In this document: in pieces, positions 1 to 12,912 of the stretch | Position numbering within the stretch: position 1 is the first letter of the stretch | Layout: each line of letters opens with the position of its first letter | Assembly: GCF_013035315.1 (NCBI RefSeq) | Contig: NZ_WQHP01000010.1 | Coordinates: 1-64,000, forward strand | Source: Ruegeria arenilitoris | Lineage (GTDB): Bacteria > Pseudomonadota > Alphaproteobacteria > Rhodobacterales > Rhodobacteraceae | Direction of reading: 5' to 3' | Length of the DNA stretch: 64,000 bases | Position numbers and translations under genes: made by a program | The notes under the pieces: model-generated | Told to the model about the DNA's origin: nothing | The model's database searches: none | What the model saw: the letters and a program-made list of their open reading frames with translations, nothing else

Positions 1-135
1 GTTTTTCGAACCGTGAATCATGCCACCAGACGGAAATCAATGGGTCCTGACCCTAGGTTTAAGGCTTGCACTCTAATGCCGAAACTTCAGAATTGGGGTG
101 CGCGCATTGAAAATTCAGATTTGGAGAAAATAGTA

Positions 136-1002
136 ATGAAGCGAGTATTTCAGCAACCATTTGACATGGGTTGGGCTACGGTTGTTGCTGCCGTTATTGC
201 TTCCGCAACTACGTTTATATTTTGGATTTTGGGTCCAGATGTTGAGAGCATCACCGAAGCAAAAAATGAAAGAATTAGTGAGCTTGTCAAGGAGCTGGAA
301 GTCGAAAAAGAAATGCTTCAGCTTTCGGAAAAAGCCAAAATCAACTGTCTTACAGAGAAGGCTAGCCTTGCGGCAACACTGACTGCTGAGCAGGCTAACA
401 GAAAGCAAATAATCGAAAGCGAGCGTGCAAAATTCTCTTGTAAATCCATAGAGTTAGAATACGGAAACGAAAGAGAGCTTTGGAATAAGCGCAACAAGGA
501 ACTTGAGCTTAATCTTCAAGATGCAACACTGAGGCTTAACCAAGCGGAAAACGACAAGGAAGCTGCTGAAAATGAAGCGAGAAAAGCAATAAACGACCTG
601 AATGCATTGAGGAGCAGGATGGACCGGAACATCGACTTGCAGTTGAGCTATGATAGTGTCGAGAAGATCTTGGAAGATCTGGCCTCGGAAAGCACTGATT
701 TTAATGAGAAAACTTCTGTGGAGCGATTGAGGGCTTTCCAGCTGGAGGTTATTCGTGAACTAAGTCTCATTGAAGATTTTCGTAGTCGGTCTGATGAAGT
801 GGAATACTACTTTAACGCGGACATTAAAGAGTTCCTTGACCGCCTTTTGGACCGCCAAGGCGAAACAGACGCCCCACTTGATGCGGAAACATATCAACGC
901 GAACTCGGTGAGCTTTTAAAGAACCATAATTCCCGAGAAGGCGATTTTGAAAAGAAACTGGATCTACTATTGAACGCCGAAAAGAACCTAAACTCGAATT
1001 GA
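136..1002 (+). CDS. Membrane-anchored coiled-coil protein, unknown function
   Basis: 288 residues from the ATG at 136, which has GGAG at 123-126; the frame stays open upstream to about base 13, but that stretch has no clear ribosome site. One hydrophobic segment at about residues 13-33 is followed by a long, charged, heptad-like helical region (about 40-200, rich in Glu, Lys, Leu) and a second acidic helical part. Expected topology is a short N-terminal tail, one membrane pass and a large coiled-coil domain. I do not recognise a family. Base composition is AT-richer than the chromosome further right, and the gene lies at the outer part of the satellite-like island, where cargo genes usually sit. 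A role in blocking phage or plasmids is possible but nothing in the sequence proves it. Confidence 0.7.
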   Translation: MKRVFQQPFDMGWATVVAAVIASATTFIFWILGPDVESITEAKNERISELVKELEVEKEMLQLSEKAKINCLTEKASLAATLTAEQANRKQIIESERAKFSCKSIELEYGNERELWNKRNKELELNLQDATLRLNQAENDKEAAENEARKAINDLNALRSRMDRNIDLQLSYDSVEKILEDLASESTDFNEKTSVERLRAFQLEVIRELSLIEDFRSRSDEVEYYFNADIKEFLDRLLDRQGETDAPLDAETYQRELGELLKNHNSREGDFEKKLDLLLNAEKNLNSN

Positions 1003-1094
1003 ACTGCCGGCGCTTTTGTTTTGTCGCCTGGTTGAAGAACAAGGTTGGAAGTGCTCCCTATCAGTACGAACTGGTAAAGCTCGTTTGATGGTTG

Positions 1095-1781
1095 TCACCA
1101 AAACCTTCGGCAAACGCCTTCGCTTATCATTATCCCGCCCAGGTCCCGGCCGTCTTCCAAACGGCAACTGCCGATCTTACGGTCATAGCTAGTTCGCCCA
1201 TTAAGGTAACAGGTCAGATTCTGGTCCGTGACTAGGGTTTGCATCCGCCCAGTTGCCTGGCGGCCCTTCGTCGTTCCCCGCTCTGAGCAGTCAAGCGAGC
1301 CGAAGCGAATAGGAACACCTGCAACCTCTATAGTGTCACCATCTCGGACGCGGGTCACGCGACCCCTGAGCTCTTGGGTACTAGTCAAGGCAACAACAGT
1401 ACCCAGATATTCCGGAAACCGTTCAACAGCCTGGAAAACCAAAAATATGGCAACACCCAAAGCAATGATCAAAGATAGCAGTTTGTTACCCTTTGCTTTG
1501 TGACGTCTGCGGTTCTTGGCGAAGGCTCTTCGGCTTGTTTTGAGCCTGGCTGGGGAATTTGGCTGACGGACGCTGCGTGATTTCATGCGCGTTTGCTTTG
1601 TCGTAATTTTCAGAAGTTGACTGTATTGCTTCTTGGTTAGGTTTGTTCCAGTGCCGTGGCGATCAAGCTTACTCTTGATGCCCCTAAGAAAATCTCGCTC
1701 CCACTCATTCAACAAGGTTGATGCGAGCGCCAAGTTAATACAGCGTTGTATCTCGTCCAATTTTTCGGGTGTAAATGGCAT
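1095..1781 (-). CDS. Membrane-anchored staphylococcal-nuclease-like (SNase) protein
   Basis: 228 residues. Residues 1-60 form a helical region, 65-99 are strongly basic, 100-118 are a membrane segment, and 139-228 are an SNase/OB-fold domain. The key nuclease residues can be aligned: the RVRDGDT strand (145-151) carries the metal-binding Asp, IRFGSLDCSE supplies Arg159, Asp164 and Glu167, and YDRKIG supplies Arg201. Four cysteines (165, 191, 206, 224) could form disulfides. The basic side before the membrane segment suggests N-in topology, placing the nuclease domain in the periplasm. GGAG lies about 11 bases before the ATG. SNase-like proteins cut DNA or RNA with calcium. In a mobile island it may degrade incoming DNA or be plain cargo; both are inference. 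Confidence 0.82.
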   Translation of the reverse strand: MPFTPEKLDEIQRCINLALASTLLNEWERDFLRGIKSKLDRHGTGTNLTKKQYSQLLKITTKQTRMKSRSVRQPNSPARLKTSRRAFAKNRRRHKAKGNKLLSLIIALGVAIFLVFQAVERFPEYLGTVVALTSTQELRGRVTRVRDGDTIEVAGVPIRFGSLDCSERGTTKGRQATGRMQTLVTDQNLTCYLNGRTSYDRKIGSCRLEDGRDLGGIMISEGVCRRFW

Positions 1782-1987
1782 TTTGCTTCAATCTCCACTC
1801 AGCTTACCCCCGAAAATTGGCTTATTTGGCAAAAGGGCAACCCACAGGTTCCTTTAGCTAAACCACTGTTGTGAATAAGCTGCGTAATGACAGTTTTACC
1901 GGAGGCATCCTAGTGCGCTAAAAACTCCGGCTCGTATAAATCTTGGTCTGCCCCCTGCGGGCAGTTGCTGCGGCTCCCGTCCTGCAG

Positions 1988-2365
1988 TTAGTTGATAGGT
2001 TCAGGACTGGTATGCTCTGAGGTGAAGTCACGCCTCAGCTTATTGTAATCAAGCAGGCTTGTACCCAACGCAGGGCTTAGGCCAAGCAGATGGGTGTATT
2101 GTTCGATCACCCCGGCCAAGGAAATCCGACGCAAACCCACAAGGTCCGCCTCTTCAGTTAGGAACCAGTCGTCTCCCTGTTTATCAATCTTCCGTTGCTC
2201 CAGTTTCCGCAGGTCGAGCAGGGTGCACACGGCGCTGACGTATATGCGTATCAGGTCGGCGTGCAGCACCGTAAAATACCCAATAGGACGACTGTGCACC
2301 ACCGCAGCCCATTTCGTTGCTTCGCGTTCGGGCAAGTCGGCAGGAGCCGGGAGATACTCGGTCAT
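1988..2365 (-). CDS. P27-like phage terminase small subunit (probable)
   Basis: 125 residues. The layout matches the P27 family of small terminases: an N-terminal LPAPADLPEREATKW segment, a first helical pair containing a DLIRIYVSAVCTL helix, a middle linker, and a C-terminal helical part ending with LLGLSPALGTSLL, the place where the family has its GLTPSSR-like motif. Small terminases recognise the packaging site and guide the large subunit. AAGGAC sits about 6 bases before the ATG. No large terminase, portal or capsid gene is near, so alone it could only redirect another phage's packaging machine, as satellites do, or be a relic. The family call rests on pattern, not on a profile search. 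Confidence 0.6.
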   Translation of the reverse strand: MTEYLPAPADLPEREATKWAAVVHSRPIGYFTVLHADLIRIYVSAVCTLLDLRKLEQRKIDKQGDDWFLTEEADLVGLRRISLAGVIEQYTHLLGLSPALGTSLLDYNKLRRDFTSEHTSPEPIN

Positions 2366-2463
2366 ACCAAGTCCTTTATACTTTGGGTGGAGCTAAAGGA
2401 TAGCGGTTACAACTTCTGGAGGTAAAGGGCACTATAAATAAGGCGAAATTCAACTTCGTAGTA

Positions 2464-2495
2464 GGTGGGCGCACCGCGCCACACCTCTGTTTTTT
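2464..2495 (+). terminator. Rho-independent terminator with no + strand gene before it
   Basis: GGTG-GGCGC (2464-2472), loop ACC, GCGCC-A-CACC (2476-2485), then a run of six T at 2490-2495. The T-run is on the + strand, but both nearest genes (1988-2365 and 2511-3428) run on the - strand. It may end an antisense or small RNA, or stop transcription entering from the left. Confidence 0.5.
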
Positions 2496-2510
2496 ATTAG
2501 TTGGTCAGTC

Positions 2511-3428
2511 TCATCGGTTTGGCACTAACAAACCACGCAGTTCTGGTGGTCCATAAACCGAGACAAAACCATTCTTTGTGTCCGTAAACCTTCCGGCTTC
2601 GACAATGACATCATTGTCTTGGGATCTAAGATGGAATTTCCCACCGTTGAAGCGATCCGAAGTTAAAGAGAACTGAAAAACGTCGTTCACTTTCGCTGAA
2701 ACTTCGACGTTTTCAGCGATATTGTGACCGACAAATAGAGATGATGCGCCTCGCTTGCCGGAAAAGAGGGCAAATCCATTACCGTTTATGTCTGACCCGA
2801 TCCTATAGAAAGGGATTTTATCGGAAATGGCTTGAATGGATGAAGTTCCGTCGCGATTTGCATAAATCCACGTCCCAAATTCTCCGCTGCTAGGTCCAAG
2901 CCAAATGGTCGACAACGCGGGGTCTTTGCCGGCGGCAAACCCGCCAACACTTTCGTTGTTCGAGTCCACAATTTCCAAGGCGGACGTTCGGACGATCTCC
3001 ACACCGTTGCCTATTGTTGATTTCACAACGGTTGTAACGAAGTCAGTTGACACATTTTCTACCGCCAGGGCCACTTCGTTTCTTACGCTTGCTTTGGCTG
3101 CAATGAGGGCTTCATCAAAGGCTGCACCCGCGTTTTCGACCGTTTTTTTCAAAATATTTGTTTGACTTATGACGACCCCCAGGTCCTTCTCAGCCCTTTC
3201 CAGTTCTTTCTTGGTAGTGTCCAGAACCTTGTAACCCCATGCACCACTCAGGCCGAAGATAATGGCAACTACACCAATGATTTTGCTATAAATTTCGTAT
3301 GTCTGGACTTTCGCGGCCAATGCCTCGACTTTTTCTTCCAGTTTTTTGACGGGGTCTTCCAATACAGTGTTCCTTTGGTTCTGCTTGTGTTGTCCAAGGG
3401 CGCAGCTAAGCCGCTCAACATGATGCAT
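2511..3428 (-). CDS. Single-pass membrane protein with coiled coil and beta-rich C-terminal domain
   Basis: 305 residues. AGAGGA lies 4 bases before the ATG at 3428. Residues 22-46 are a charged helix (DPVKKLEEKVEALAAKV), 49-67 a membrane segment (IIGVVAIIFGLSGAWGY), and 70-145 another amphipathic helical part. The rest, starting at ALEIVDSNNESVGGF, is rich in Gly, Ser, Phe and Asn with alternating hydrophobic residues, so probably beta-rich. The pattern around IVDSNNESVGGF resembles short repeats seen in some phage structural proteins, which is only a visual likeness. No known catalytic motif is seen. The gene has the AT-rich composition of the island and is followed on the - strand by the terminase-like gene. 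Confidence 0.7.
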   Translation of the reverse strand: MHHVERLSCALGQHKQNQRNTVLEDPVKKLEEKVEALAAKVQTYEIYSKIIGVVAIIFGLSGAWGYKVLDTTKKELERAEKDLGVVISQTNILKKTVENAGAAFDEALIAAKASVRNEVALAVENVSTDFVTTVVKSTIGNGVEIVRTSALEIVDSNNESVGGFAAGKDPALSTIWLGPSSGEFGTWIYANRDGTSSIQAISDKIPFYRIGSDINGNGFALFSGKRGASSLFVGHNIAENVEVSAKVNDVFQFSLTSDRFNGGKFHLRSQDNDVIVEAGRFTDTKNGFVSVYGPPELRGLLVPNR

Positions 3429-3500
3429 TAATTCCTCTGAATAGCTCGAGCAAGAACCTGAGACAAAATCTTTGGTTGTGTGGCTAAAGAAATCTTCGCG

Positions 3501-3677
3501 CTATTGTCCGATATTTCCAACTTGCTCCGGCTCAGTCGGCAACGGATGGTCTGGTGGGGCAACGCCGTGGGCGTCCAACCACTCCAGGACGACCAACCAA
3601 TCGTCCTGTGGACCGCGCGTACAACGCATCTGGCGCGCAGATTCAAGCTTACACCTCAAGTCATAAGGAATAGTCAT
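3501..3677 (-). CDS. Small conserved-looking protein, unknown function
   Basis: 58 residues from the ATG at 3677 (an in-frame ATG exists 5 codons earlier at 3692). The composition looks like a real small protein: DDWLVVLEWLDAHGVAPPDH has the helical, acidic-aromatic character of short phage-island proteins. It lies upstream of the 2511-3428 gene on the same strand, with 72 bases between. The ribosome site is weak. The remaining bases of the 3429-3791 gap show no other coding signal that I trust. Confidence 0.42.
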   Translation of the reverse strand: MTIPYDLRCKLESARQMRCTRGPQDDWLVVLEWLDAHGVAPPDHPLPTEPEQVGNIGQ

Positions 3678-3731
3678 TGGCCAGCGTCTCATACAGGTGT
3701 TCTATTTTTGTTCTTGGGGTCGTGCAAGGCC

Positions 3732-3743
3732 TAGCCAGCAACA
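3732..3743 (+). repeat. Direct repeat, left copy (TAGCCAGCAACA)
   Basis: The 12-base word at 3732-3743 recurs exactly at 4282-4293. A second shared word, TACCTGC, follows 11 bases later here (3755-3761) and directly in the right copy (4294-4300). The two copies bracket the DUF2441 gene. Confidence 0.6.
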
Positions 3744-3791
3744 AATCTCGTTGCTACCTGCTGTCAGTCGTGTTTGTCTGCACTTCCCAAA

Positions 3792-4274
3792 ATGAACAGT
3801 TCAAATACCGAGATGAATAATCCAATGCATTCAACATTCTATCACATCGCGCCAATACCTTTAGGCGTAGGGAGCGAGATACTACCCGGGAACTTTTGGC
3901 GCATTCGGTCCAATTTGGAAATTGATCGGAGAAAGGCTGATATGGAATTGGCCTATGAGACTGTGAGGGCAAAAGAGTTTAGTGGCAAACCGAGCAGACA
4001 AGACTGTGTATTTTGCTGCGAAAGCGAAGCAGATGCTCGCAGGTTTGCCGAAATCCACGGTCGTGCGACGAATTTGATCTATGAAGTAGAATTAGTCGAT
4101 CAAAGTGCTTTGGTTCACAAAACCAATTATGAACTGATAGATTTTGAGGCAGGGCCGACGAAATGGGATGAACTTGCTCGCAGTTATTGGTCTGATGGGC
4201 ACACTGAAAACATCGAAGTTATCTGCGGTGGAGCGATTAGAATTGTTAGGTTTGTCGGCCCGGTTACACCTTAA
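3792..4274 (+). CDS. DUF2441 family protein
   Basis: 160 residues from the ATG at 3792; ATGs at 3813 and 3825 are also possible starts, and the conserved core begins only at FYHIAP. Family features in order: YHIAPIPLGVGSEILPGNF, a RAKEFSGKPSRQDCVFCCE block, a LIYEVELVD strand, and a C-terminal YWSDGH...IEVICGGAIRIVRF part. The function of DUF2441 is unsettled; the single-domain layout opening with a Tyr-His strand recalls small ADP-ribosyltransferase-like folds, which is my inference. The gene is framed by the direct repeats at 3732 and 4282 and is clearly AT-rich, so it may have moved in as a unit. It has no obvious partner gene such as an antitoxin. Confidence 0.68.
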   Translation: MNSSNTEMNNPMHSTFYHIAPIPLGVGSEILPGNFWRIRSNLEIDRRKADMELAYETVRAKEFSGKPSRQDCVFCCESEADARRFAEIHGRATNLIYEVELVDQSALVHKTNYELIDFEAGPTKWDELARSYWSDGHTENIEVICGGAIRIVRFVGPVTP

Positions 4275-4281
4275 GAGAAAG

Positions 4282-4293
4282 TAGCCAGCAACA
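4282..4293 (+). repeat. Direct repeat, right copy (TAGCCAGCAACA)
   Basis: Exact copy of the word at 3732-3743, starting 7 bases after the stop codon of the DUF2441 gene, and continuing as TACCTGC. Confidence 0.6.
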
Positions 4294-4317
4294 TACCTGC
4301 AGTGTTACGCTGTGCGC

Positions 4318-4515
4318 ATGGAAGACATATTCATACTCGTGCTGTACGTTCTGGCGATGGTCGCGCTGCTGTGGCTGTATTTCGTCGTGCCGTGGAATAT
4401 GGCCAAGAACCGAAATCGCAACCCGTGGATCTGGGTCGGCATCAGCATCGTCGGATCACCCCTTCTGGCCATCCTGCTACTGTACGCTCTGGGCGACGCA
4501 CCGAACACGGTTTAG
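4318..4515 (+). CDS. Small membrane protein with two membrane segments
   Basis: 65 residues from the ATG at 4318 (a GTG two codons earlier is possible). Two hydrophobic segments, about 3-23 and 38-58, are joined by a basic loop NMAKNRNRNPWIW, giving a hairpin topology. Composition (Trp and Leu rich helices, Asn-Arg-Asn-Pro turn) is typical of a real short membrane protein. No clear ribosome site is seen. It faces the primase-helicase gene convergently, with the putative origin between them. Function unknown; a holin-like or superinfection role is possible but unsupported. Confidence 0.5.
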   Translation: MEDIFILVLYVLAMVALLWLYFVVPWNMAKNRNRNPWIWVGISIVGSPLLAILLLYALGDAPNTV

Positions 4516-4631
4516 GCCGCACAACGGAGTTTGGTGCGGGTCGTCAGGTCATACGGAGTGCGATTGTTTTGGTTTTCCCCTATTCTCCATTCTTCCCTCC
4601 TTATTCTTAATTTCTTCGCAATAAGAGAAAA

Positions 4632-4826
4632 GATACGACCCGTACGACCCGATGCTGTGTAACCCGCTGTTACTACGTGGAATTGATAAGGTCGTATCTA
4701 CGACCCGGGATACGACCCGCAAGGGAGTTTTCTATTGTCCGGTTGGTTTCTGTACGACACGCAGGTGCTTGCGGTCCACTGGTTCGTCATCCTGCAGGTC
4801 GGATACGACCCGGTAGATACGACCCG
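4632..4826 (+). repeat. Iteron array, candidate replication origin
   Basis: The word GATACGACCCG occurs at 4632-4642, 4709-4719, 4802-4812 and 4816-4826. The shorter form TACGACCCG occurs at 4643-4651 and 4699-4707. A degenerate TACGACACG is at 4753-4761, and an inverted copy GGTCGTATC is at 4690-4698. Most start-to-start distances are 10-14 bases or multiples, which suits protein binding along one helix face. An AT- and pyrimidine-rich stretch (about 4562-4632) lies beside it and could be the unwinding element. The array starts outside and runs into the last 95 bases of the primase-helicase gene. Iterons next to a primase-helicase gene are the usual origin layout of P4-like and PICI satellites. 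Confidence 0.72.
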
Positions 4827-7146
4827 CATTATCAGCAGCGATACCCATTGTGCTTCCGCGTGGGTCGAAGGGTGCGATACCAAGTAAAGACGACCAGTGC
4901 GCGGACAGCGGCAAGAAGTTCTTACGCACCAACTCGGAATTTGGTTCCTTGCCGAAATCGTGTTGGGAATAAAATCCCAATTTCGTCTGAACGCCGGAGC
5001 CTTGGAACAGCGACCGTCGGCGGTCCCAAACCTTACGGAAACCAAGAGCAGTCAGCACGTGTTTGGCGACGAGGTCCGGGCGGCCTTTCGGCTTGTCTAT
5101 TTGCCGGTCCTTTACCGCAGTCTTGATAAATTCGCGCACGTCCTGCGACGACAGCACAAGGGTTTTGGCGAAGGTGCCGAGGTGTTCTTGTACGTATTGC
5201 GCAGCTTCTGAAAGGTTGTCTTCTTGTAGGTCAAGTTTGCGGTCGGTAATCGGTGCTTCGACCGTGTAGCCTTTTTCAATGCCTTCTGGCGTCCCAATCA
5301 GGGACATTATCCGGGGTGCTTCGGCCAGCGCCCAATGTAGCACGGCTTGCTTGCCGCCTTTCTTATAGAACCAGCTGCGCAACCCCGATATCTGGTCCGC
5401 GGACATTTTGGTTTCGGTAACGCGCGGCACAAAGTAACGGCGGTCGGTGTCGTCGATGTTAATGGCGCTATCGTGGTTAGAGGACAGATACCAATAGCCG
5501 ATATTGCGGGTTGTGGCCTTGCCCCGGTAACGTTCCGCGATCGACACAAACTCGTTGGTAATGTACGGCTTCAAGGCTTCGGTAAAGCCCCACGGACTTT
5601 TGCCGCTCTCTCGGGCTTCTTCTACAACAATTATTCGCTTGCCTCGATACCATTCGTTAAACCTGTCGCTGCTAAACAACTGGGGTGTTATCTCGTCCGC
5701 GTTGTCCCGACCAACCAGTTCCGACAGCAGTTCGCCGAAGGTAGTTTTGCCTGTCCCGGTCTCATGCGATATCGCGCAGATAGCCCACAGGAACCCTCGG
5801 TCTCGCGTCCGGTTTCCAGCGACCACAGCGAACCAAGCAAGAGCGATATTCCGTTCGCGTGGGTCTGGGAATAGGTGTTCGGCGAAGGCCAGGAAGGGAG
5901 CAATGTCGCCTTCTACCGGGTCGAAGTCTGGGCCACGGAACAGGTTGGCGTATCTGCGGCCACCATCGTAGAACAGCGCGCCAAACGGTAGACTGGGGTC
6001 GGTGCCATAGTCGTACACGATTTCTGTGTGAGGCGACGCGACCACCTGTTCGTATGCGTTCTTACTTGGGGCAAACGGGTGGTGGTAGTAGCTGGTAAAC
6101 GTGCCAGAAGTTACTTCTTCGTCAGGGTCGAGCTTGCGCAGTTCGCACACGGTTTTGCGGTTCTTAAAGTGGACGAATAGTTCTGCGTAGTGTGGACGGA
6201 AGAAATACGACACTCGTTCTCCTCCTTGCGGCCCAGTGGTTACAATCCGATCATACGGAAACGTGCGCAGCCGAAACTTCGACATAAAATCCACACCCCG
6301 TGCACCAAACGTCCCGTCTGCTAAATCCCACCCAGACCCGTCGTGTTTCTTCGGGTTACGTAACTGGTCGAAGTAGGACGGGTCCGATATGTAAACCGCA
6401 GCAGCAATCCCTTCTAAAGCGTCGGCCAGCCGCACAGCTTTCTCTAATCCAGGCTTGTCCTTGTCGCGGAATATGTAAACGGTGCGACCGCGCAAAGGCC
6501 GAAGGTCCGTTTGCTGTGGTCCTGCGCCAGCCATAACCGAAGCGTGGGCCATACGCCGCAGTTGTTTGTGCCAAGGGTGGGTTTCGTCTTGCGTTGCGAT
6601 ATTGCCGGCGTCAGCCGCGTCTTCGCCTTCGTGCAGCGCCACGGGTATGTCTGGGGTGCGTTTCTCTATTCTGTCTAGGCCATACAGCGGTCGTTGTTCG
6701 CCGCTAGGCCAACCGGGCACCCACCGCTGGCCGTTTTCGTCCTTGCCGAAATAATAGGGCTTAACCACTTTGTCTTGCCCAGACCCCCAACGCAGAACAA
6801 CAGCCAGCAGGGCGTTTTCGCCGTTGCGTATTTCGTGGATTTTGTCTGCTTTATTTGCTTGTTTAGGTAGGCCGAACGACACGGGGACTTCTGGTATTCG
6901 CTTTGGTTTGTCGCGCTGGCTTGGTTTGTCAGCCCAAGCAACGTTTTCTACAAGCTCGTTTGCGGCGGTCTCTAGGTCGGACTTGCTACAGCGTCGAGCC
7001 AGACAGCACAGGTGGTAGGTGCCGGGTTGGTCGCCGGGACGAACCAGCAGCGACGGATTGTGGTCCGTGTGGCCAGGACCAATACACCGGATTGTGGTTT
7101 CTTTTCCTTGGTCTGCGAGTGCCAAGGCTTGCGTAAATGTAGGCAT
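4732..7146 (-). CDS. Primase-helicase (CHC2-like zinc site, TOPRIM, SF3/DUF5906-type helicase)
   Basis: 804 residues. N-terminal Cys/His cluster (Cys21, His26, Cys47, Cys48, Cys53) looks like a primase zinc site. A TOPRIM-like region follows, with Glu173 in LHEGEDAADAG and Asp228/Asp230 in VYIFRDKDKPG. The C-terminal ATPase has Walker A ETGTGKTT (462-469), Walker B RIIVVEEA (504-511) and a sensor/arginine part YLSSNHDSAINIDDTDRR (553-570), as in phage and satellite replication helicases. It should prime and unwind DNA at an origin; iterons lie at its own 3' end. AGGGGA sits 4 bases before the ATG. It is transcribed away from the HTH and 66-residue genes, on their strand, after a 379-base leader with repeated words. 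Full length and apparently intact. Confidence 0.9.
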   Translation of the reverse strand: MPTFTQALALADQGKETTIRCIGPGHTDHNPSLLVRPGDQPGTYHLCCLARRCSKSDLETAANELVENVAWADKPSQRDKPKRIPEVPVSFGLPKQANKADKIHEIRNGENALLAVVLRWGSGQDKVVKPYYFGKDENGQRWVPGWPSGEQRPLYGLDRIEKRTPDIPVALHEGEDAADAGNIATQDETHPWHKQLRRMAHASVMAGAGPQQTDLRPLRGRTVYIFRDKDKPGLEKAVRLADALEGIAAAVYISDPSYFDQLRNPKKHDGSGWDLADGTFGARGVDFMSKFRLRTFPYDRIVTTGPQGGERVSYFFRPHYAELFVHFKNRKTVCELRKLDPDEEVTSGTFTSYYHHPFAPSKNAYEQVVASPHTEIVYDYGTDPSLPFGALFYDGGRRYANLFRGPDFDPVEGDIAPFLAFAEHLFPDPRERNIALAWFAVVAGNRTRDRGFLWAICAISHETGTGKTTFGELLSELVGRDNADEITPQLFSSDRFNEWYRGKRIIVVEEARESGKSPWGFTEALKPYITNEFVSIAERYRGKATTRNIGYWYLSSNHDSAINIDDTDRRYFVPRVTETKMSADQISGLRSWFYKKGGKQAVLHWALAEAPRIMSLIGTPEGIEKGYTVEAPITDRKLDLQEDNLSEAAQYVQEHLGTFAKTLVLSSQDVREFIKTAVKDRQIDKPKGRPDLVAKHVLTALGFRKVWDRRRSLFQGSGVQTKLGFYSQHDFGKEPNSELVRKNFLPLSAHWSSLLGIAPFDPRGSTMGIAADNAGRIYRVVSDLQDDEPVDRKHLRVVQKPTGQ

Positions 7147-7172
7147 TTTGTCCCCTATCTATTTTGGCTAGG

Positions 7173-7249
7173 GGCTTTACTCGCTGGGTCCTCGTAGCTA
7201 AACTCAGGGTTGTAAAGCCGTGGTTGGTACCGTTGCGGTCGGCTTTACA
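7173..7249. repeat. GTAAAGCC repeat set in front of the primase gene
   Basis: GGCTTTAC at 7173-7180 and 7241-7248, and the reverse complement GTAAAGCC at 7212-7219. The last two form a 10-base perfect inverted repeat, TGTAAAGCCG (7211-7220) with CGGCTTTACA (7240-7249). The first copy is 27 bases from the primase start codon, so a protein bound here would block or steer its transcription. Confidence 0.5.
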
Positions 7250-7276
7250 CCGCCACAGAACTACGGAAAAATTTGG

Positions 7277-7302
7277 CCCACGACTGCTCATCCGGTCGTG
7301 GG
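7277..7302. repeat. Hairpin CCCACGAC / GTCGTGGG
   Basis: Eight-base stem (7277-7284 with 7295-7302) and a 10-base loop, in the leader of the primase gene; followed on the + strand by a T-rich stretch TACTTTTCTTT. It may be a terminator for + strand transcripts or a leader structure. Confidence 0.4.
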
Positions 7303-7525
7303 TACTTTTCTTTAATCCTGTAGCTCTGTAGTAAGCTGTGTTCGTGCGCAAAACACACGCCAAATATTCGCCTTTTAACAGACGCTTATGTGGGGTACAT
7401 TTCGTGTAAGCTTGGGGCATTTTCTGTTTTTTGTTGCCTCTTGTTGCATTGACCCCCGGTCGTCACAGATGCGGGGATCGATCAGTTTCTGACATCACAA
7501 CCTTAACGAGATATACCTTGCTGGG

Positions 7526-7726
7526 CTAGGTTTTGGGTTCGGCGTTGTCATTAGCTTCGGTGGCCGGATTGTAGATCAACAGCCGCACATCGGCGTTTAA
7601 GGCTTTCACGATGCTCCTGGCTGTGCGCAGTTCCGCCGCGTCTTCAACCTTCACGCCATAGCCGTTTGCCGCAGCGTGTTTGATCGCACCGATCAGTTCT
7701 TCGTCTCGCAGTGTCATTGGCTTCAT
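7526..7726 (-). CDS. Small protein, unknown function, coupled to the HTH gene
   Basis: 66 residues: a helical, charged N-terminal half (LRDEELIGAIKHAAANGYGV), a short second helix, and a C-terminal beta-like VRLLIYNP followed by a disordered tail. Its ATG overlaps the TGA of the HTH gene by the ATGA at 7723-7726, so the two are translationally coupled. No family recognised. Position between the HTH regulator and the primase suggests a control or replication accessory role. Confidence 0.62.
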   Translation of the reverse strand: MKPMTLRDEELIGAIKHAAANGYGVKVEDAAELRTARSIVKALNADVRLLIYNPATEANDNAEPKT

Positions 7727-7932
7727 GCGGCACCCTTCCCGACCACCTCAACCTTCGACTGGTTGATGTAGTCAATCAGGTCAGACCCCAGGATGCGCCG
7801 GGTTCGTGGACCGTATTGCTGGTGAGGGATGGCTTTGTGCCGAACCTTCGCTTGAATGGTTTGTATGTTGATCTGCAATATCTCCGCCACCTCGGGCAAT
7901 GTATACTGCTTGTTTGGTTCAATATCAGACAT
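7723..7932 (-). CDS. Small helix-turn-helix protein, excisionase/AlpA-like
   Basis: 69 residues from the ATG at 7932; the frame has earlier ATGs at 7944 and 7953. The core is a MerR-type winged-helix: YTLPEVAEILQINIQTIQAKVRH, then a wing with RTRRILGSDLIDYI. This is the form of excisionases and AlpA regulators, which bend DNA at att sites or switch on satellite genes. It is divergent from the 8046 gene and the integrase, and begins a leftward unit with the 66-residue gene and probably the primase. That divergent arrangement next to an integrase is common in Gram-negative phage satellites. Confidence 0.75.
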   Translation of the reverse strand: MSDIEPNKQYTLPEVAEILQINIQTIQAKVRHKAIPHQQYGPRTRRILGSDLIDYINQSKVEVVGKGAA

Positions 7933-8045
7933 ATTGTATTCCATTGGAAGCATTATTTGGAGTATATTGAAGCTATATAACTTTACTTCCCAGGTAAACC
8001 CTTATACTAAAAAAGAAGTAACTTATCGTACAGACAGGATTACAG
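7933..8045. promoter_or_regulatory. Divergent control region between HTH gene and integrase unit
   Basis: A strongly AT-rich stretch between two divergent start codons. It holds a TATACT word at 8003-8008 that could serve as a -10 box for the rightward unit, and TATACT on the opposite strand at 7966-7961 for the leftward unit; no good -35 boxes are seen, as expected if an activator is needed. Confidence 0.4.
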
Positions 8046-8585
8046 ATGATCGAAAAACGACAACAGGCCTTGCTCCGCGAGATGGCGGACGCACAGGACA
8101 ACGAACTGCGGTTCAGGGCTGTGCATTACCTGATTGCGGAATACGTGCCCCGGACCGAAGCGCAGATGGGTGCGTTGGCCGCAGCACTGGCCGAATTGAC
8201 CGGGGCAACGGACCTCGGGCCGCTGGAGAGCGTTGTAGAGGCGTGTAAGTTACTAAAGCTGGCCTATGTAACCGGCGAGGGCAACGAGAACGCCTCTAAC
8301 ACGCCTCTACGCCCGGTCCCAAACGCAGCCAGGATGGGGAAAGTGGCTGAAATACTCGGCCCACACCTGATCTGGGACTTCACGGCCAAGCACAACTTCT
8401 TCCCCAATGCGCGCGACCCACTAACGGCGGTCGCGGTGTCGGGGGTTCACACAATCATTGAAGGCAAGAGCATCATTCGCTGCGGGTACTGCGAACGGCG
8501 CATCGTCCCCAAGCGGTCTTCGGCTGCTTGGTGCGGCCCCAGTTGTAAGTCTGGCGCCCAGTACAGGAGGAACCGAGATGGCTAG
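8046..8585 (+). CDS. Protein with C-terminal zinc-ribbon-like motif, upstream of integrase
   Basis: 179 residues; AGGA lies 8 bases before the ATG at 8046. The N-terminal two thirds are helical. The C-terminal 40 residues hold CGYC and WCGPSCKSGAQYRRNR, i.e. Cys-x2-Cys ... Cys-x3-Cys followed by a basic tail, the form of the short zinc fingers that end CGNR/FCxxxC-type DNA-binding proteins. Its TAG stop (8583-8585) lies inside the integrase gene, an 8-base overlap, so the two are probably translated together. I infer a DNA-binding partner or regulator of the integrase. No named family. Confidence 0.68.
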   Translation: MIEKRQQALLREMADAQDNELRFRAVHYLIAEYVPRTEAQMGALAAALAELTGATDLGPLESVVEACKLLKLAYVTGEGNENASNTPLRPVPNAARMGKVAEILGPHLIWDFTAKHNFFPNARDPLTAVAVSGVHTIIEGKSIIRCGYCERRIVPKRSSAAWCGPSCKSGAQYRRNRDG

Positions 8586-9657
8586 CATCAATAAGGTCTA
8601 CACCAAGAAAGGCGAACCGCGCTGGCGGGTAAAATCTGAACGCACGACCCCGAACGGCGAACGGATTCACGCGCCTTCAGCCACGTTCAAGACCTACGCC
8701 GAGGCAAAGGCCGAAGCTGCCAAACGGGAATTGGTTGGCGGAACCTTCGGCAAGGGGTCGCTGGCCGCATATCTTAGCTCCTGGGTCGATTACCGGGAAC
8801 GCATGAACTTGGTCCGGCCGAGCACAGCAGTCGGATATCGGTCGGTTATTGACGACGCGAACGCACATATTGGTGCGGTCCCACTTGCCAAGCTTTCGGT
8901 GGACGAAATTGAATACTGGTTGGCCGCAATGCGGGAACGCGGTGTCAGTGCCGGTTCGCTTGTCAACTATAAGGCCATCATCAGTTCGGCCCTGAATGAC
9001 GCTGTGAAGGCGCGTAAGATCATCTACAACCCCTGTTCTGCTGCTCGGTTGCCAAAGACCTCACGACACGGCGAACGAGTGGTGCCACCGCTGGTGGATG
9101 TGCGCCTGTTTCTGGACGCCCTCGACCTCACTGAACACGGGTTGCTGTATCGGTTGTGCGCCTTGACTGGGTTGCGCCGGGGTGAAGCGGGTGGTCTGCT
9201 CTGGGACTGTGTTGACCTTGAAGGCAAGCAACTACATGTGCGCCGGAACCTAACGCGGGACAAGGCCGGAGAGTGGGTGTTAGGACCGCCCAAGACGCGT
9301 ACAAGCGAACGTACCGTTCCGCTTGTCTCTGACGCTGTCCGGGTGCTGCGCAGGGCGAAACTGAAAGCCGGGAGCAGTGACTTCGTGTTCCCCGGCAAGA
9401 ACGGTGGTCAACGGTCAATGGGTGCGGTTTCAGATGCGGGTCGCCGGGTTAAGCGGAACTTGGGGTTACCACAAGCTTTTAGTCCGGCGCACGGGATGCG
9501 CAATTTCTTCGCCACAATGATGCTGCGCAACGGAACCGAAATTCGTGTGCTTCAAGGCATTTTGGGCCACGCATCGCCGGAACAAACGATGAGCTACCAA
9601 AAGCCGGACGACGATGACCGCGCTCAGGCGATGAACGCGATTGATGGTTTGCTCTGA
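8578..9657 (+). CDS. Tyrosine-type site-specific integrase
   Basis: 359 residues from the ATG at 8578, which has a perfect AGGAGG at 8565-8570 with 7-base spacing; the frame is open upstream but lacks such a site. Residues 1-55 are an Arm-binding-like domain, 60-150 the core-binding SAM-like domain, 170-359 the catalytic domain. Catalytic set complete: Arg200 (TGLRRGE), Lys239 (GPPKT), His305 and Arg308 (HGMRNF), His331 (GHAS) and the nucleophile Tyr340 (TMSY). It should catalyse integration and, with the HTH protein, excision of the island. It is the rightmost gene of the island, as usual for an integrase next to its att site. Confidence 0.92.
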   Translation: MASINKVYTKKGEPRWRVKSERTTPNGERIHAPSATFKTYAEAKAEAAKRELVGGTFGKGSLAAYLSSWVDYRERMNLVRPSTAVGYRSVIDDANAHIGAVPLAKLSVDEIEYWLAAMRERGVSAGSLVNYKAIISSALNDAVKARKIIYNPCSAARLPKTSRHGERVVPPLVDVRLFLDALDLTEHGLLYRLCALTGLRRGEAGGLLWDCVDLEGKQLHVRRNLTRDKAGEWVLGPPKTRTSERTVPLVSDAVRVLRRAKLKAGSSDFVFPGKNGGQRSMGAVSDAGRRVKRNLGLPQAFSPAHGMRNFFATMMLRNGTEIRVLQGILGHASPEQTMSYQKPDDDDRAQAMNAIDGLL

Positions 9658-9660
9658 AAC

Positions 9661-9682
9661 GCCGGGGAAAGGCCGGGGAAAC
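9661..9682 (+). repeat. Tandem 11-base repeat after the integrase
   Basis: GCCGGGGAAAG at 9661-9671 is followed at once by GCCGGGGAAAC at 9672-9682. Short direct repeats beside an integrase gene may be arm-type binding sites. Confidence 0.4.
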
Positions 9683-9754
9683 CGAAGATTTTAATCCGCT
9701 TTTACTTTAAACAACAATACTTAGCGAATTTAAGAGTATTGGTTCCAAGAGCAA

Positions 9755-9791
9755 TTAGGCCCCAGCGTTGTTAGACAACGCCAGAGCCTAA
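9755..9791. repeat. Interrupted inverted repeat near the right island boundary
   Basis: TTAGGC (9755-9760) pairs with GCCTAA (9786-9791), and inside it GCGTTG (9765-9770) pairs with CAACGC (9776-9781), loop TTAGA. No T-run follows on either strand, so it is a poor terminator. Its place between the integrase and the first chromosomal-looking gene makes it a candidate for the recombination core or for a regulatory site. Confidence 0.45.
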
Positions 9792-9821
9792 AATTATCCC
9801 GTAAGAACGTGCGCGCTGCGT

Positions 9822-9932
9822 TCAGCGGGAACCGAATAGCCAGCTGAAAGCCCGTGCAATCGCTTTACTGCGCTCGGCATGCGCCCGCTGAAAGGCGCGG
9901 GCGGCTGCTGGATTTGTTGTCATTTCGATCAT
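9822..9932 (-). CDS. Small basic protein of 36 residues (DUF1127-like style)
   Basis: 36 residues from the ATG at 9932; AAGGAAG lies about 6 bases upstream (alternative ATG at 9923). The sequence is Ala-rich and basic (TTNPAAARAFQRAHAERSKA) and ends with an amphipathic aromatic helix, AIARAFSWLFGSR. This is the look of the short Arg-rich proteins common in Rhodobacterales, some of which act through RNA turnover; that function is not shown here. It is divergent from the LysR gene. GC-rich codon use suggests it is chromosomal, and thus sets a limit for the right end of the island. Confidence 0.6.
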   Translation of the reverse strand: MIEMTTNPAAARAFQRAHAERSKAIARAFSWLFGSR

Positions 9933-10045
9933 GGCAGTCTTCCTTTCAGTTCAGCTTTGTTTGACTTACACCCAATATGCGCCTTATCAATCATACTGAC
10001 AAACGAGCTTTCTTCGGGTTTCAGTTAAGATTTTCTTGTGCATCT

Positions 10046-10993
10046 ATGAGCGACTATCTTCCCCCTCTGACCGCCCTGCGCGCCTTTGACGCCGCCGCAC
10101 GCCATATGTCTTTTGCCAAGGCCGCCGAGGAATTACGCGTTACCCCAGCGGCCCTGTCGTTTCAGATCAAGTCGCTTGAAGAGCATCTGGGGAGACCGTT
10201 GTTTTTCCGCCTGAACCGCGCGGTCGAACTGACTGAAGCCGGGCGTGCCCTTGCCCCGGGTGCGGCCGAGGGGTTTGCCGCCTTGCAAACCGCATGGCAG
10301 GCCGCGCGACGGCAGGGCAACGATACCTCGCTGACAGTGACGGCGGGGCCCGCGTTAACGGCCAAGTGGCTTGCCCCGCGTCTTTACGACTTTGCCCGGG
10401 CGCACCCTGAGATCGACCTCAAATTCTCGGCCACCCTGCGCAACATGGATCTTGAGCGCGACGACGTGGATGTCGCCATCCGGTTCGGCTATGGCGGAGA
10501 TGAGGGGCTATACTCGCTACCCGTTCGCAAGGAATGGCTGACGCCGGTCATGACCCCCGAACTGGCCGAGCAGTTTCCAACCCCGGAAAGCCTGAAAGAC
10601 GCCCCGCTGATCTTTGACGACTCTATCGCGTTCCTGCAGCCACCCAGCGATTGGCCAAAGTGGTTTCGGGCGGTCGGTGTGGATTTTGCGCCCAGCCATG
10701 GGGCGCATTTCTCGAACGCGGACCATGCAATTGATGCCGCTGTTGCCGGTGTTGGCGTGGTACTGGGACGCCGCGCGATGATCATCAAGGACCTGACCGA
10801 GGGTCGCCTTGTTGCCCCATTCAAAACCGCGATTGAAACACAGGGCCGTTTTCGGTTCTTGTGCCTGCCGGGGGCGGAAAACAGACCGCAGATCGCAGCA
10901 TTCCGCGACTGGTTCATGTCAGAGATTGAAAAGACAGCCCATATCTCGGATGAGTTCGAGATTATTCCGGTGGAAGAGGTTCCGGCCACATGA
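10046..10993 (+). CDS. LysR-family transcriptional regulator (GcvA-like)
   Basis: 315 residues from the ATG at 10046; the in-frame extension back to 9977 has no ribosome site. Winged HTH at about residues 6-64 (LRAFDAAARHMSFAKAAEEL, then VTPAALSFQIKSLEE) with the GcvA-type phrase LGRPLFFRLNR. The C-terminal part is the periplasmic-binding-protein-like effector domain. Its TGA overlaps the ATG of the DMT exporter (ATGA at 10990-10993), so regulator and transporter are one unit and the regulator probably senses the transported compound or its precursor. The divergent 36-residue gene shares the 113-base upstream gap, where the operator should be. Confidence 0.88.
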   Translation: MSDYLPPLTALRAFDAAARHMSFAKAAEELRVTPAALSFQIKSLEEHLGRPLFFRLNRAVELTEAGRALAPGAAEGFAALQTAWQAARRQGNDTSLTVTAGPALTAKWLAPRLYDFARAHPEIDLKFSATLRNMDLERDDVDVAIRFGYGGDEGLYSLPVRKEWLTPVMTPELAEQFPTPESLKDAPLIFDDSIAFLQPPSDWPKWFRAVGVDFAPSHGAHFSNADHAIDAAVAGVGVVLGRRAMIIKDLTEGRLVAPFKTAIETQGRFRFLCLPGAENRPQIAAFRDWFMSEIEKTAHISDEFEIIPVEEVPAT

Positions 10994-11856
10994 CGAAATC
11001 GCGCGCCACGGCCATTGGGTTCATCGCCGTCCTCCTTTGGTCTCTGCTGGCACTGTTCACGGTGGGCTCGGTGCCGACGCCACCGCTGTTACTGAACGCC
11101 ATCTGTTTTTCCATCGGCGGAGCTTTGGGCCTGATCTGGACGTGGCGCAGCGGCGGGTTGCGCCAGTTGCTGGACATCACCTGGACCACATACGTTTTTG
11201 GTACAATCGGCCTGTTTGGCTATCACGCCCTCTATTTCTCAGCCCTGCGCATGGCACCTGCGGCCGAGGCGGGCCTGATCGCTTACCTCTGGCCATTGCT
11301 CATCGTTTTGCTTTCAGGGCTTCTGCCGGGTGAGCATCTTAGGATCGGACATCTGATCGGGGCCTGCCTGGGTTTTGCCGGGGCGGCCGTGATCATCGCA
11401 GGCGGCGGCAGCGCCGGGTTTCAAGCCGAGCATCTGCCGGGATACGCATTGGCCTTGCTATGCGCACTGACCTGGTCTGGCTATTCTGTGCTGTCGCGTC
11501 GTTTAGGCGACACCCCCACCAGTTCGGTCGCTGTATTCTGCATTGCCACGGCCATCGCCTCGGCCGCGCTGCATCTGGCGGTCGAGGATACGATCTTGCC
11601 TGACACGGCCCTTGGCTGGGCCTCCGTAGTAGCACTCGGGCTGGGTCCGGTCGGGCTGGCGTTCTATGTTTGGGATATCGGGGTGAAACAGGGCGACATT
11701 CAGGTCTTGGGCACGGCGTCGTATGCGGCACCCTTGTTGTCTACGCTGGTTCTTGTTTTGGCCGGGATCGCCGCCCCGTCCTGGGGTCTGGCGATCGCGG
11801 CACTTTTGATTACGGGCGGCGCGATCATTGCCGCGCGTGCAAGTCTGAAACGCTAG
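10990..11856 (+). CDS. DMT/EamA family exporter, YddG-like
   Basis: 288 residues with about ten membrane segments in two EamA repeats. The N-terminal part (ATAIGFIAVLLWSLLALFT) and the FGYHALYFSALRMAPAAEAG segment match the YddG branch of the drug/metabolite transporters, which exports aromatic amino acids and related compounds in enterics. Substrate here is unknown. Translation is coupled to the LysR gene. Its TAG stop overlaps, in the palindrome CTAG (11853-11856), with the TAG stop of the convergent DUF465 gene. Confidence 0.85.
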   Translation: MTKSRATAIGFIAVLLWSLLALFTVGSVPTPPLLLNAICFSIGGALGLIWTWRSGGLRQLLDITWTTYVFGTIGLFGYHALYFSALRMAPAAEAGLIAYLWPLLIVLLSGLLPGEHLRIGHLIGACLGFAGAAVIIAGGGSAGFQAEHLPGYALALLCALTWSGYSVLSRRLGDTPTSSVAVFCIATAIASAALHLAVEDTILPDTALGWASVVALGLGPVGLAFYVWDIGVKQGDIQVLGTASYAAPLLSTLVLVLAGIAAPSWGLAIAALLITGGAIIAARASLKR

Positions 11857-12017
11857 TTTGACAGGCGCTCGATCTCTTCCTTTAGCCTTAGCTTCTGTTT
11901 TTTGAGTTGAGCGATATGGAGATCATCGATGCCTGGCGAGCGTTGGGCTTGTTCGACTTCAAGACCGAGAGTTTCGTGCTTTTTCTTCAGTTCGGTCAGA
12001 TGTGCGCTCACGCTCAT
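11853..12017 (-). CDS. DUF465 / YdcH family small protein
   Basis: 54 residues from the ATG at 12017, with GAAGGAG about 8 bases upstream. Almost entirely a charged amphipathic helix: AHLTELKKKHETLGLEVEQA, then HIAQLKKQKLRLKEEIERL at the C-terminus, the recognised DUF465 signature. Function of the family is unknown; members are abundant small proteins. Convergent with the DMT exporter gene and sharing its stop palindrome. Confidence 0.88.
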   Translation of the reverse strand: MSVSAHLTELKKKHETLGLEVEQAQRSPGIDDLHIAQLKKQKLRLKEEIERLSN

Positions 12018-12138: not shown

Positions 12139-12912
12139 CTATTGACCAAAAAACCCGGTCATCGCAGCCCCATCACGCAGTACTGCTGACACCTGCGGTT
12201 CATAGCTTTCGCCGTCCTTTTCGTGGCGATCCCCCGCGTGCAAAATCAGCGGCGCATGCAGTCGAAAAGCAGCTTTTCCGCCCTTTCTGGCCCGTAGAAT
12301 AACCAATTCGGCAGCCCGACCGGTCCGCGCGGCCAAGGGCAGCACTTCGACCGATCCCAAGCGCCCCGCACAGGCTGCAAGCATGTCGGGCAGCCGGTCC
12401 GCTTTTTGGATCATGTGCAGATAGCCCCGCGGGGCAAGGCGTTTGGCCGCGCAATCGAACCAAAGCTCCAGCGGCGTCTGTTCGCCCAGCGCGACGCTGC
12501 GCCCCGCATCCTCTGCCGGGCTGTGTGCCCCAGCCCGGTAGTAAGGCGGGTTCGCAATCACGTAATCAAATTGTCGTTGTTTCAAGTCGGCGGGCAAGGC
12601 GCTCAGATCCGCCTCGACCACTTCAAGCGGTGCGTCATTCTCGGCCGCATTGCGGCGCGCCAGATCGGCGTAACTGGCTTGCAGCTCGACCCCGACAGCC
12701 TGCAAGCCCGACACGCGGGCGAGCAGACAAAGGACCGCCGCCCCTGCCCCGCAGCCCAGTTCCAAAACGGTGTGACCACGTGTCGCCGGTACCGTGGCGG
12801 CCAGCAACACCGGGTCTACCCCGGCACGATATCCAGACCGTGGCTGCCAAAGCCGCACACGGCCACCCAGAAAGTCGTTTCGAGTCAAATCAGTGTCGGA
12901 AAACAGGGTCAT
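12139..12912 (-). CDS. tRNA1(Val) adenine-37 N6-methyltransferase-like protein (TrmN6 family)
   Basis: 257 residues of a class I SAM-dependent methyltransferase. SAM-binding motif LELGCGAGAAV at 50-60, an acidic VGVELQ at the end of the second strand, and the amino-methylase signature NPPY at 121-124. The opening FLGGRVRLWQPRSGYRAGVD is typical of YfiC/TrmN6, which methylates A37 of tRNA-Val. The exact target in this organism is inferred from the family. Its start overlaps the stop of the DUF2007 gene by 4 bases (12909-12912), so the pair is one operon. Confidence 0.82.
   Translation of the reverse strand: MTLFSDTDLTRNDFLGGRVRLWQPRSGYRAGVDPVLLAATVPATRGHTVLELGCGAGAAVLCLLARVSGLQAVGVELQASYADLARRNAAENDAPLEVVEADLSALPADLKQRQFDYVIANPPYYRAGAHSPAEDAGRSVALGEQTPLELWFDCAAKRLAPRGYLHMIQKADRLPDMLAACAGRLGSVEVLPLAARTGRAAELVILRARKGGKAAFRLHAPLILHAGDRHEKDGESYEPQVSAVLRDGAAMTGFFGQ

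Follow-up and report, generated by a model that had tools for sequence, protein, structure and literature searches.

What kind of mobile element lies at the left edge of the 64,000-nucleotide stretch of Ruegeria arenilitoris DNA considered here (contig NZ_WQHP01000010.1, positions 1 to 64,000, which is C2:1-64000 of the genome G000 and is hereafter called the window), and by what route would it be packaged? A first-pass annotation had placed there a satellite of the phage-inducible chromosomal island (PICI) or P4 type. The island is probably an integrated phage satellite, in which an early module like that of the phage-inducible chromosomal minimalist islands (PICMIs) is combined with a PICI-like small terminase (TerS) that would redirect the terminase of a helper phage. 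This reading is preferred because of the attachment cores, the empty sites, the lower G+C content, the protein families of the early module, the iterons, the TerS folds and the lack of recognised head, tail or large-terminase (TerL) genes. Excision, induction and packaging of the island are predictions from its sequence.

Ends of the island and the contig break

The joined island measures 15,961 bp with its insertion sequence (IS), i.e., about 16 kb, and the window holds the right-hand ~9.7 kb. An identical 12-bp core, TTATCCCGTAAG, stands at both ends, as attL at C19:170201 (L033:6202) on a second contig, C19, and as attR at window 9794-9805. On its left the island adjoins an acetoacetyl-CoA-reductase-type gene (TIGR01829, 342.1 bits vs the cut-off of 302.1), so that the order on C19 is the reductase gene, a terminator-like hairpin, the core and then foreign DNA. 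The right neighbour is a 36-codon open reading frame (ORF), the core sitting in the gap between two convergent ORFs, and the ORF at 9822-9932 belongs to the host side, outside the island. When window 9660-12000 was compared with 30 other genomes, 19 matched, 18 of them from the same genus; the similarity begins at 9794-9796 in 17 of these 18 (the eighteenth matches the later part only), and this shared start marks the right end of the foreign segment. The edge had earlier been drawn at 9830, and the actual end is base 9805.

Comparison with related genomes had been proposed as a check of mobility, and the empty site was indeed found there: the core is uninterrupted in all 11 genomes of the genus (L014-L024) that were viewed on the left side as well, out of the 17 sharing the boundary. 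The reductase stop codon precedes the uninterrupted core by 49-56 bp in 10 of the 11, another gene lying upstream in G002, and four of the loci taken again (L067-L070) gave the same result. The G+C content is 0.508 in the left part of the island and 0.520 in the right part, vs 0.596 in the remaining window. The integrase, the matching cores at its two ends and the empty site in relatives mark the segment as an integrative mobile element, and its mobility is very likely. Directly inside attR, an inverted repeat at 9740-9793 was noticed by eye; it is possibly a replacement terminator for the adjoining 36-codon ORF, or an arm site.

At base 1 of the window the assembly contig begins, within an IS5-type element of 831 bp. 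The end of this element occupies 1-53 (minus strand) and is 100% identical to that of the full copy on C19 (L033:11592-12422, equal to C19:175591-176421; DUF4096 transposase, E 3.6e-23). C2:1-55 is identical to the right end of the IS and C2:144366-144420 to its left end, and besides the C19 copy the genome holds two short weak matches only. The IS is the mark of the contig break and stands outside the satellite's own gene set. In G018 (L025), the DNA preceding the core matches G000:C19:164335-170130 at 86%, which places the left flank of the island on C19. The arrangement C19(left)-IS-C2-IS-C19(right) would be the simplest solution: the att flanks on C19 and C2 are contiguous in G018, and in G020 the homologues of the last C2 gene and of the first C19 gene past the IS adjoin (67% and 41% identity, one inverted), so that synteny supports both joins, as judged from sequence rather than reads. 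The dinucleotide TA is present at every IS flank, and target duplications therefore do not discriminate among the joins. A separate 144-kb circle, C2 closed by the IS, was considered and ruled out by the contiguous flanks in G018 and the neighbouring homologues in G020. The two IS copies stand 144 kb from each other in the same orientation, which would account for the assembler having left C2 out of C19; if they recombined, all of the 144 kb could in principle be lost.

Early module, iterons and two probable small terminases

The genes named at first for integration and replication are borne out by profile scans. The tyrosine integrase (8578-9657, plus strand) matches PF00589 (E 5.1e-23) and the PHROG integrase (E 2.3e-67), and is overlapped by 8 nt by a gene at 8046-8585 (plus strand) for which Pfam and PHROG scans gave no family and which holds the same position as iolg of PICMIs. 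On the minus strand, an AlpA-like HTH_17 protein, a putative excisionase or activator, is encoded at 7723-7953 (PF12728, E 9e-9; TIGR01764 excise, E 1.1e-4, under the cut-off); it had been recognised correctly as a helix-turn-helix protein, and its extent has been corrected from 7723-7932, base 7932 belonging to an internal ATG. A 66-aa ORF (7526-7726, minus strand) overlaps the alpA-like gene by 4 nt and separates it from the gene of the 804-aa primase-helicase (4732-7146, minus strand). The latter protein has CHC2-like, TOPRIM and DUF5906 helicase motifs, with matches to DUF5906 (PF19263, E 3e-16), to the PHROG DNA primase (E 2.3e-23) and, by sequence in the PDB, to 6k9e and 6k9c ('Primase', E 2e-12). 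The strings which we take to be its zinc-finger-like, TOPRIM-like and Walker A motifs are all present. Transcription is divergent, the int side running on the plus strand and the alpA-primase side on the minus strand, and the early module appears undamaged.

Iterons at the 3' end of the primase gene, also suspected from the outset, stand out clearly as a putative replication origin (4634-4824). TACGACC, counted on either strand, has 13 copies in the 64 kb, of which 7 lie there, one group spanning 4634-4717 and the other 4804-4824; away from 4500-4900, the window has no more than 2 copies in any 200 bp, and in 200 mononucleotide shuffles of window 1-9793 at most 2 were found per 200 bp. When one mismatch is tolerated, the window has 22 matches to GATACGACC, whereas dinucleotide shuffles predict 9.88 and none of the 100 shuffles reaches 22. 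Bordering the iteron groups is an A+T-rich tract (4600-4639, 0.70), with a lone GGTCGT at 4539 on its far side. According to PMC6092414, the PICI origin is found immediately 3' of the replication gene and has an A+T-rich stretch flanked by two sets of iterons. The iterons of the island likewise follow the replication gene immediately and form two groups, with the A+T-rich tract apparently beside them rather than between them.

Two putative small terminases were found, on opposite sides of the IS and with 34% identity to each other. TerS2 (1988-2365, minus strand) is a 125-aa HK97/P27-like protein with a short C-terminus; TerS1, on the C19 part of the island, is longer and has a C-terminal part that TerS2 lacks. 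The early proposal of a P27-like TerS at 1988-2365 agrees with a weak match to the PHROG TerS profile (E 1.9e-4) and with an HK97-like predicted fold, the protein having no match in Pfam (Terminase_4) or NCBIfam (P27). TerS1 likewise gave no Pfam or NCBIfam small-terminase match above the curated cut-offs, and the TerS of the one close relative, a Tropicibacter element described below (L002), falls under them (20.6 bits vs 24.7, and 12.7 vs 45.6); TerS1 aligns with it at 34% (E 2e-22). The tentative fold assignment comes from modelling TerS2 and the L002 TerS, TerS1 being assigned by similarity. The best PDB match of both models is the HK97 small terminase, with scores of 8.7/8.5 vs 6.4, a clear gap, for TerS2 and 9.4/9.2 vs 8.2, a small one, for L002, model confidence being middling in both cases; in a viral structure library, the top matches of both are mostly small terminases. 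In sequence the HK97 protein (PDB 6z6e, 8pop) is distant, at 12-16% identity, and a search of the PDB with the TerS alignment found no small terminase, the best matches (E 0.3 and 0.36) being unrelated. A frameshift in TerS2 was looked for by eye and rejected, no continuing C-terminus being visible in the other frames.

The profile scans covered the listed ORFs of the island, 11 in the window and 7 on C19 (L033: 6497-6781, 7042-7236, 7364-7564, 7728-8081, 8593-9516, 9555-10037 and 10396-11508), i.e., 18 with TerS1 and 17 without it, smaller or unlisted ORFs being outside their scope. No significant capsid, portal, protease, tail, lysis or TerL family was found among the 18, and no conjugation gene was recognised; the sole tail label ('minor tail protein', E 0.089, non-significant) falls on a lipoprotein-like ORF (7728-8081). 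The absence of capsid, tail and TerL genes, first noted for 9.6 kb, holds for the 11 island ORFs scanned in the window. The DNA left of base 1, where structural genes might have turned the island into an ordinary prophage, consists of 5.4 kb on C19 up to attL and has a second TerS and no recognised head, tail or TerL gene, so that the ordinary prophage was rejected. A search of the whole genome with PF03354 and PF05065 (E<=0.001; other terminase families were not searched) gave no match, the same profiles matching in 3 and 4 of 14 control genomes, and a helper using these families is therefore not resident.

Relatives, known satellites and cargo

A scan of genome contigs with the primase found one relative, L002, in Tropicibacter sp. 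R16_0 (Roseobacteraceae). Its element is integrative, measures about 12.8 kb and lies between two genes taken by eye for polyamine genes; it contains another integrase, a primase with iterons, a GIY-YIG/DUF4357 protein, a TerS and an HK97-type major capsid protein. The likeness extends to the primase (49% in the best segment, 50% in the alignment, ~50% overall), to the TerS (34% to TerS1) and to the iterons at the primase 3' end, where TACCAC occurs nine times, with first bases at 12319-12624 (span 12319-12629), over the end of the gene and just past it, seven of them within one 200-bp stretch vs at most one elsewhere. The two elements differ in the integrase, which has an Arm-DNA-bind_3 domain in L002, in the site, in the GIY-YIG/DUF4357 cargo and in the capsid gene that L002 has of its own. 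This capsid protein is recognised by PHROG (E 2.7e-21), PF05065 (24.4 bits vs 24.2) and TIGR01554 (34 vs 27.5) and shows 27.8% identity over 68% of its length to the capsid of Pseudomonas phage PAJU2. No portal or TerL family was found in the 12 ORFs of the L002:7657-19368 element scanned with one or both libraries, and L002 apparently is an uncommon case of a partial capsid set.

Among the sampled genomes, those of the family and class being draws from larger groups, the lineage proved rare. The TerS alignment matched in 0 of 53 other same-genus genomes and in 1 of 393 other family genomes, where the weak match (E 3e-5) fell on an ORF taken by eye for trigger factor and was dismissed. The primase found partial matches in 11 of 60 other genomes (E<=0.001), and with the primase alignment, matches that each covered only part of the query appeared in 4 of 393 other genomes of the family (E<=1e-20), and none appeared among 384 further genomes of the class (E<=1e-30). 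Eight neighbourhoods (L045-L052) among 15 primase-matching genomes, i.e., those apart from G006, G008, G009, G035, G042, G043, G055 and a second place in G020, had no TerS or capsid relative by phmmer. In two genomes, genes beginning alike (L047:6933-8045 and L048:6964-8409) were seen beside distantly related DUF5906 primases; the former has a weak T7-type terminase match (PF22530, E 1.8e-4, under the cut-off), the latter none at E<=0.001, and these loci may be other satellite or phage types.

Among viral contigs, no relative was found with the primase, TerS1, the L002 capsid or the TerS alignment, and the integrase gave one distant locus (29%), its content unrelated by eye. Phage records had no match to TerS1 or TerS2 and 330 to the primase, none over 80% of the query and with 22.9-30.7% identity among the 20 matches listed. 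In plasmids, the primase matched 8 records, all partially, and the integrase 294, all below 60% identity, the C19 part of the island having no match. No published satellite like this was recognised for these bacteria in titles and the starts of abstracts, subscription journals being mostly outside this coverage.

P4-like satellites are distinguished by Sid-type capsid remodelling and psu/delta-type genes. No Sid-, psu- or delta-type family appeared in the general scans, no search being aimed at them; the satellite plan proposed at first for the island has held, and it is nearer to PICI and PICMI than to P4. The PICMI model uses the profiles PF00589, PF12728 and PF19263 (PMC10803314), int and alpA going together with a DUF5906 or DUF3987 primase, and the same three families occur together in the island as int, alpA and the DUF5906 primase. 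By the same source, int shares 1, 4 or 13 nt with an overlapping gene in 21 of 35 PICMI subfamilies, that of PICMI115 being required for excision, and single genes are often found between alpA and the primase; the island also has an int-overlapping gene and a small gene between alpA and the primase. PICMIs, however, lie at fis and average 6.7 kb in Vibrionaceae (PMC10803314), whereas the island lies beside an acetoacetyl-CoA-reductase-type gene, measures 15,961 bp and carries a TerS, a word which the text of that source has once, 'terminase' occurring there nowhere. By site and size, the island is not a PICMI as defined.

PICIs are marked, among other things, by attachment sites that prophages are not known to use, by genes of their own and by phage-dependent induction, interference and packaging into particles. 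The resemblance of the island to PICIs, which PMC6092414 describes as around 15 kb in size with a TerS and an AlpA-like regulator, concerns these features and the lack of recognised structural genes. The Gram-negative PICIs are transcribed one way, according to the same paper, but the island is divergent and has two TerS, and so it would agree with PICIs in part, one-way transcription failing. The capsid-forming PICIs (cf-PICIs) bring capsid, portal, protease, connectors and both terminase subunits (PMC10690885), whereas TerS alone was recognised in the island.

Most of the remaining genes are possible cargo. A membrane coiled-coil protein is encoded at 54-1002 (plus strand; weak LmuB match, E 6.8e-4), its true start being uncertain, since ORF 1-1002 begins artificially within the IS end (window 1-53). 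A membrane-anchored nuclease-like protein (1095-1781, minus strand; PHROG endonuclease, E 1.4e-5) aligns at 29% (E 2e-4) with a C19 nuclease, and another membrane coiled-coil protein (2511-3428, minus strand) has no significant Pfam or PHROG family and is unrelated to the membrane protein of L002. A DUF2441-like protein (3774-4274, plus strand; PF10386, E 1.3e-4, just under the cut-off; phrog_5663, E 1.1e-16) is followed by a 67-aa small membrane protein (4312-4515, plus strand; phrog_9201, E 7.5e-6, function unknown). The C19 part adds an HNH-like protein (PtuB models, best E 1.4e-3), a lipoprotein-like protein and the nuclease mentioned above (L033:10396-11508), which has an SNase domain (PF00565, E 1.1e-9) and, by eye, a short repeat with a Cys residue, which recurs about seven times in tandem behind that domain. 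The view of the cargo as interference genes gains this SNase domain, the matches being otherwise weak, and a defence role against competing phages is a guess. Past the IS on C19, a DUF1254/DUF1214 protein (L033:13511-15019) adjoins an AraC-type gene, and lower-G+C DNA holds a 1108-aa ORF (L033:15563-18889) without a Pfam family at E<=0.001, perhaps as part of another mobile region.

Rival readings and significance

In the satellite proposed here, a helper phage would switch on transcription of alpA, the small ORF and the primase gene; excision would be the work of the AlpA-like protein together with the integrase and the product of the int-overlapping gene, and the primase-helicase would copy the island from the iterons. 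The satellite TerS would then steer the large terminase of the helper to the island DNA, which would be packed into helper particles. Competing phages may be the target of the membrane proteins, the HNH protein and the nuclease. Such TerS-directed packaging in helper particles is likely.

The same genes could in theory be remnants of a decayed prophage that lost its structural genes and kept the integrase, regulator, primase and TerS by chance, as TerS and DUF5906 primases are found in phages too, an IS lies inside the element, TerS2 is short and the Tropicibacter relative has a capsid gene. This is improbable, since the integrase and primase frames are open and of full length with their motifs present, both ends are intact, the size is satellite-like (around 15 kb in PMC6092414) and the same primase-iteron-TerS plan recurs in another genus, at another site and with another integrase. 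Equally improbable is an integrative island that replicates itself, stays out of phage particles and uses TerS, e.g., to block the packaging of invading phages: the short C-terminus of TerS2, a cargo with an SNase domain in one protein and weak likeness to PtuB in another, the HNH protein (E 1.4e-3), and the lack of a resident helper with PF03354 or PF05065 would suit it, but no conjugation gene was recognised, and TerS1 is of full length with an orthologue beside a capsid gene in Tropicibacter.

Two satellites in tandem might also have fused when the DNA between them was lost in connection with the IS; this idea is a special form of the satellite reading rather than its exclusive rival, and would account for the two TerS paralogues (34%) and the two nuclease-like proteins (29%) on either side of the IS. 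We regard it as unlikely, because a search tolerating up to 2 mismatches revealed no att core inside either part of the island, a single integrase and a single primase were found, and the paralogues are far diverged. As a tentative extension, with less than even expectation of being right, the satellite could represent a separate lineage of an alphaproteobacterial line including Tropicibacter, in which PICMI-type excision and replication are joined to TerS packaging. There the full-length TerS would redirect packaging, the short one might serve a second helper or poison the helper's terminase, and the Tropicibacter cousin would be a halfway form with its own shell protein.

PICIs are known from many Firmicutes and Gammaproteobacteria, and cf-PICIs mainly from certain other groups, as stated in PMC10803314; satellite homologues are described as widespread across Pseudomonadota and Bacillota in PMC10690885. 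A bounded, apparently intact TerS satellite with a Tropicibacter relative suggests that TerS hijacking occurs in this alphaproteobacterial line too, and its two TerS paralogues raise the question of whether the packaging selector is duplicated to widen, or to defend, the choice of helper.

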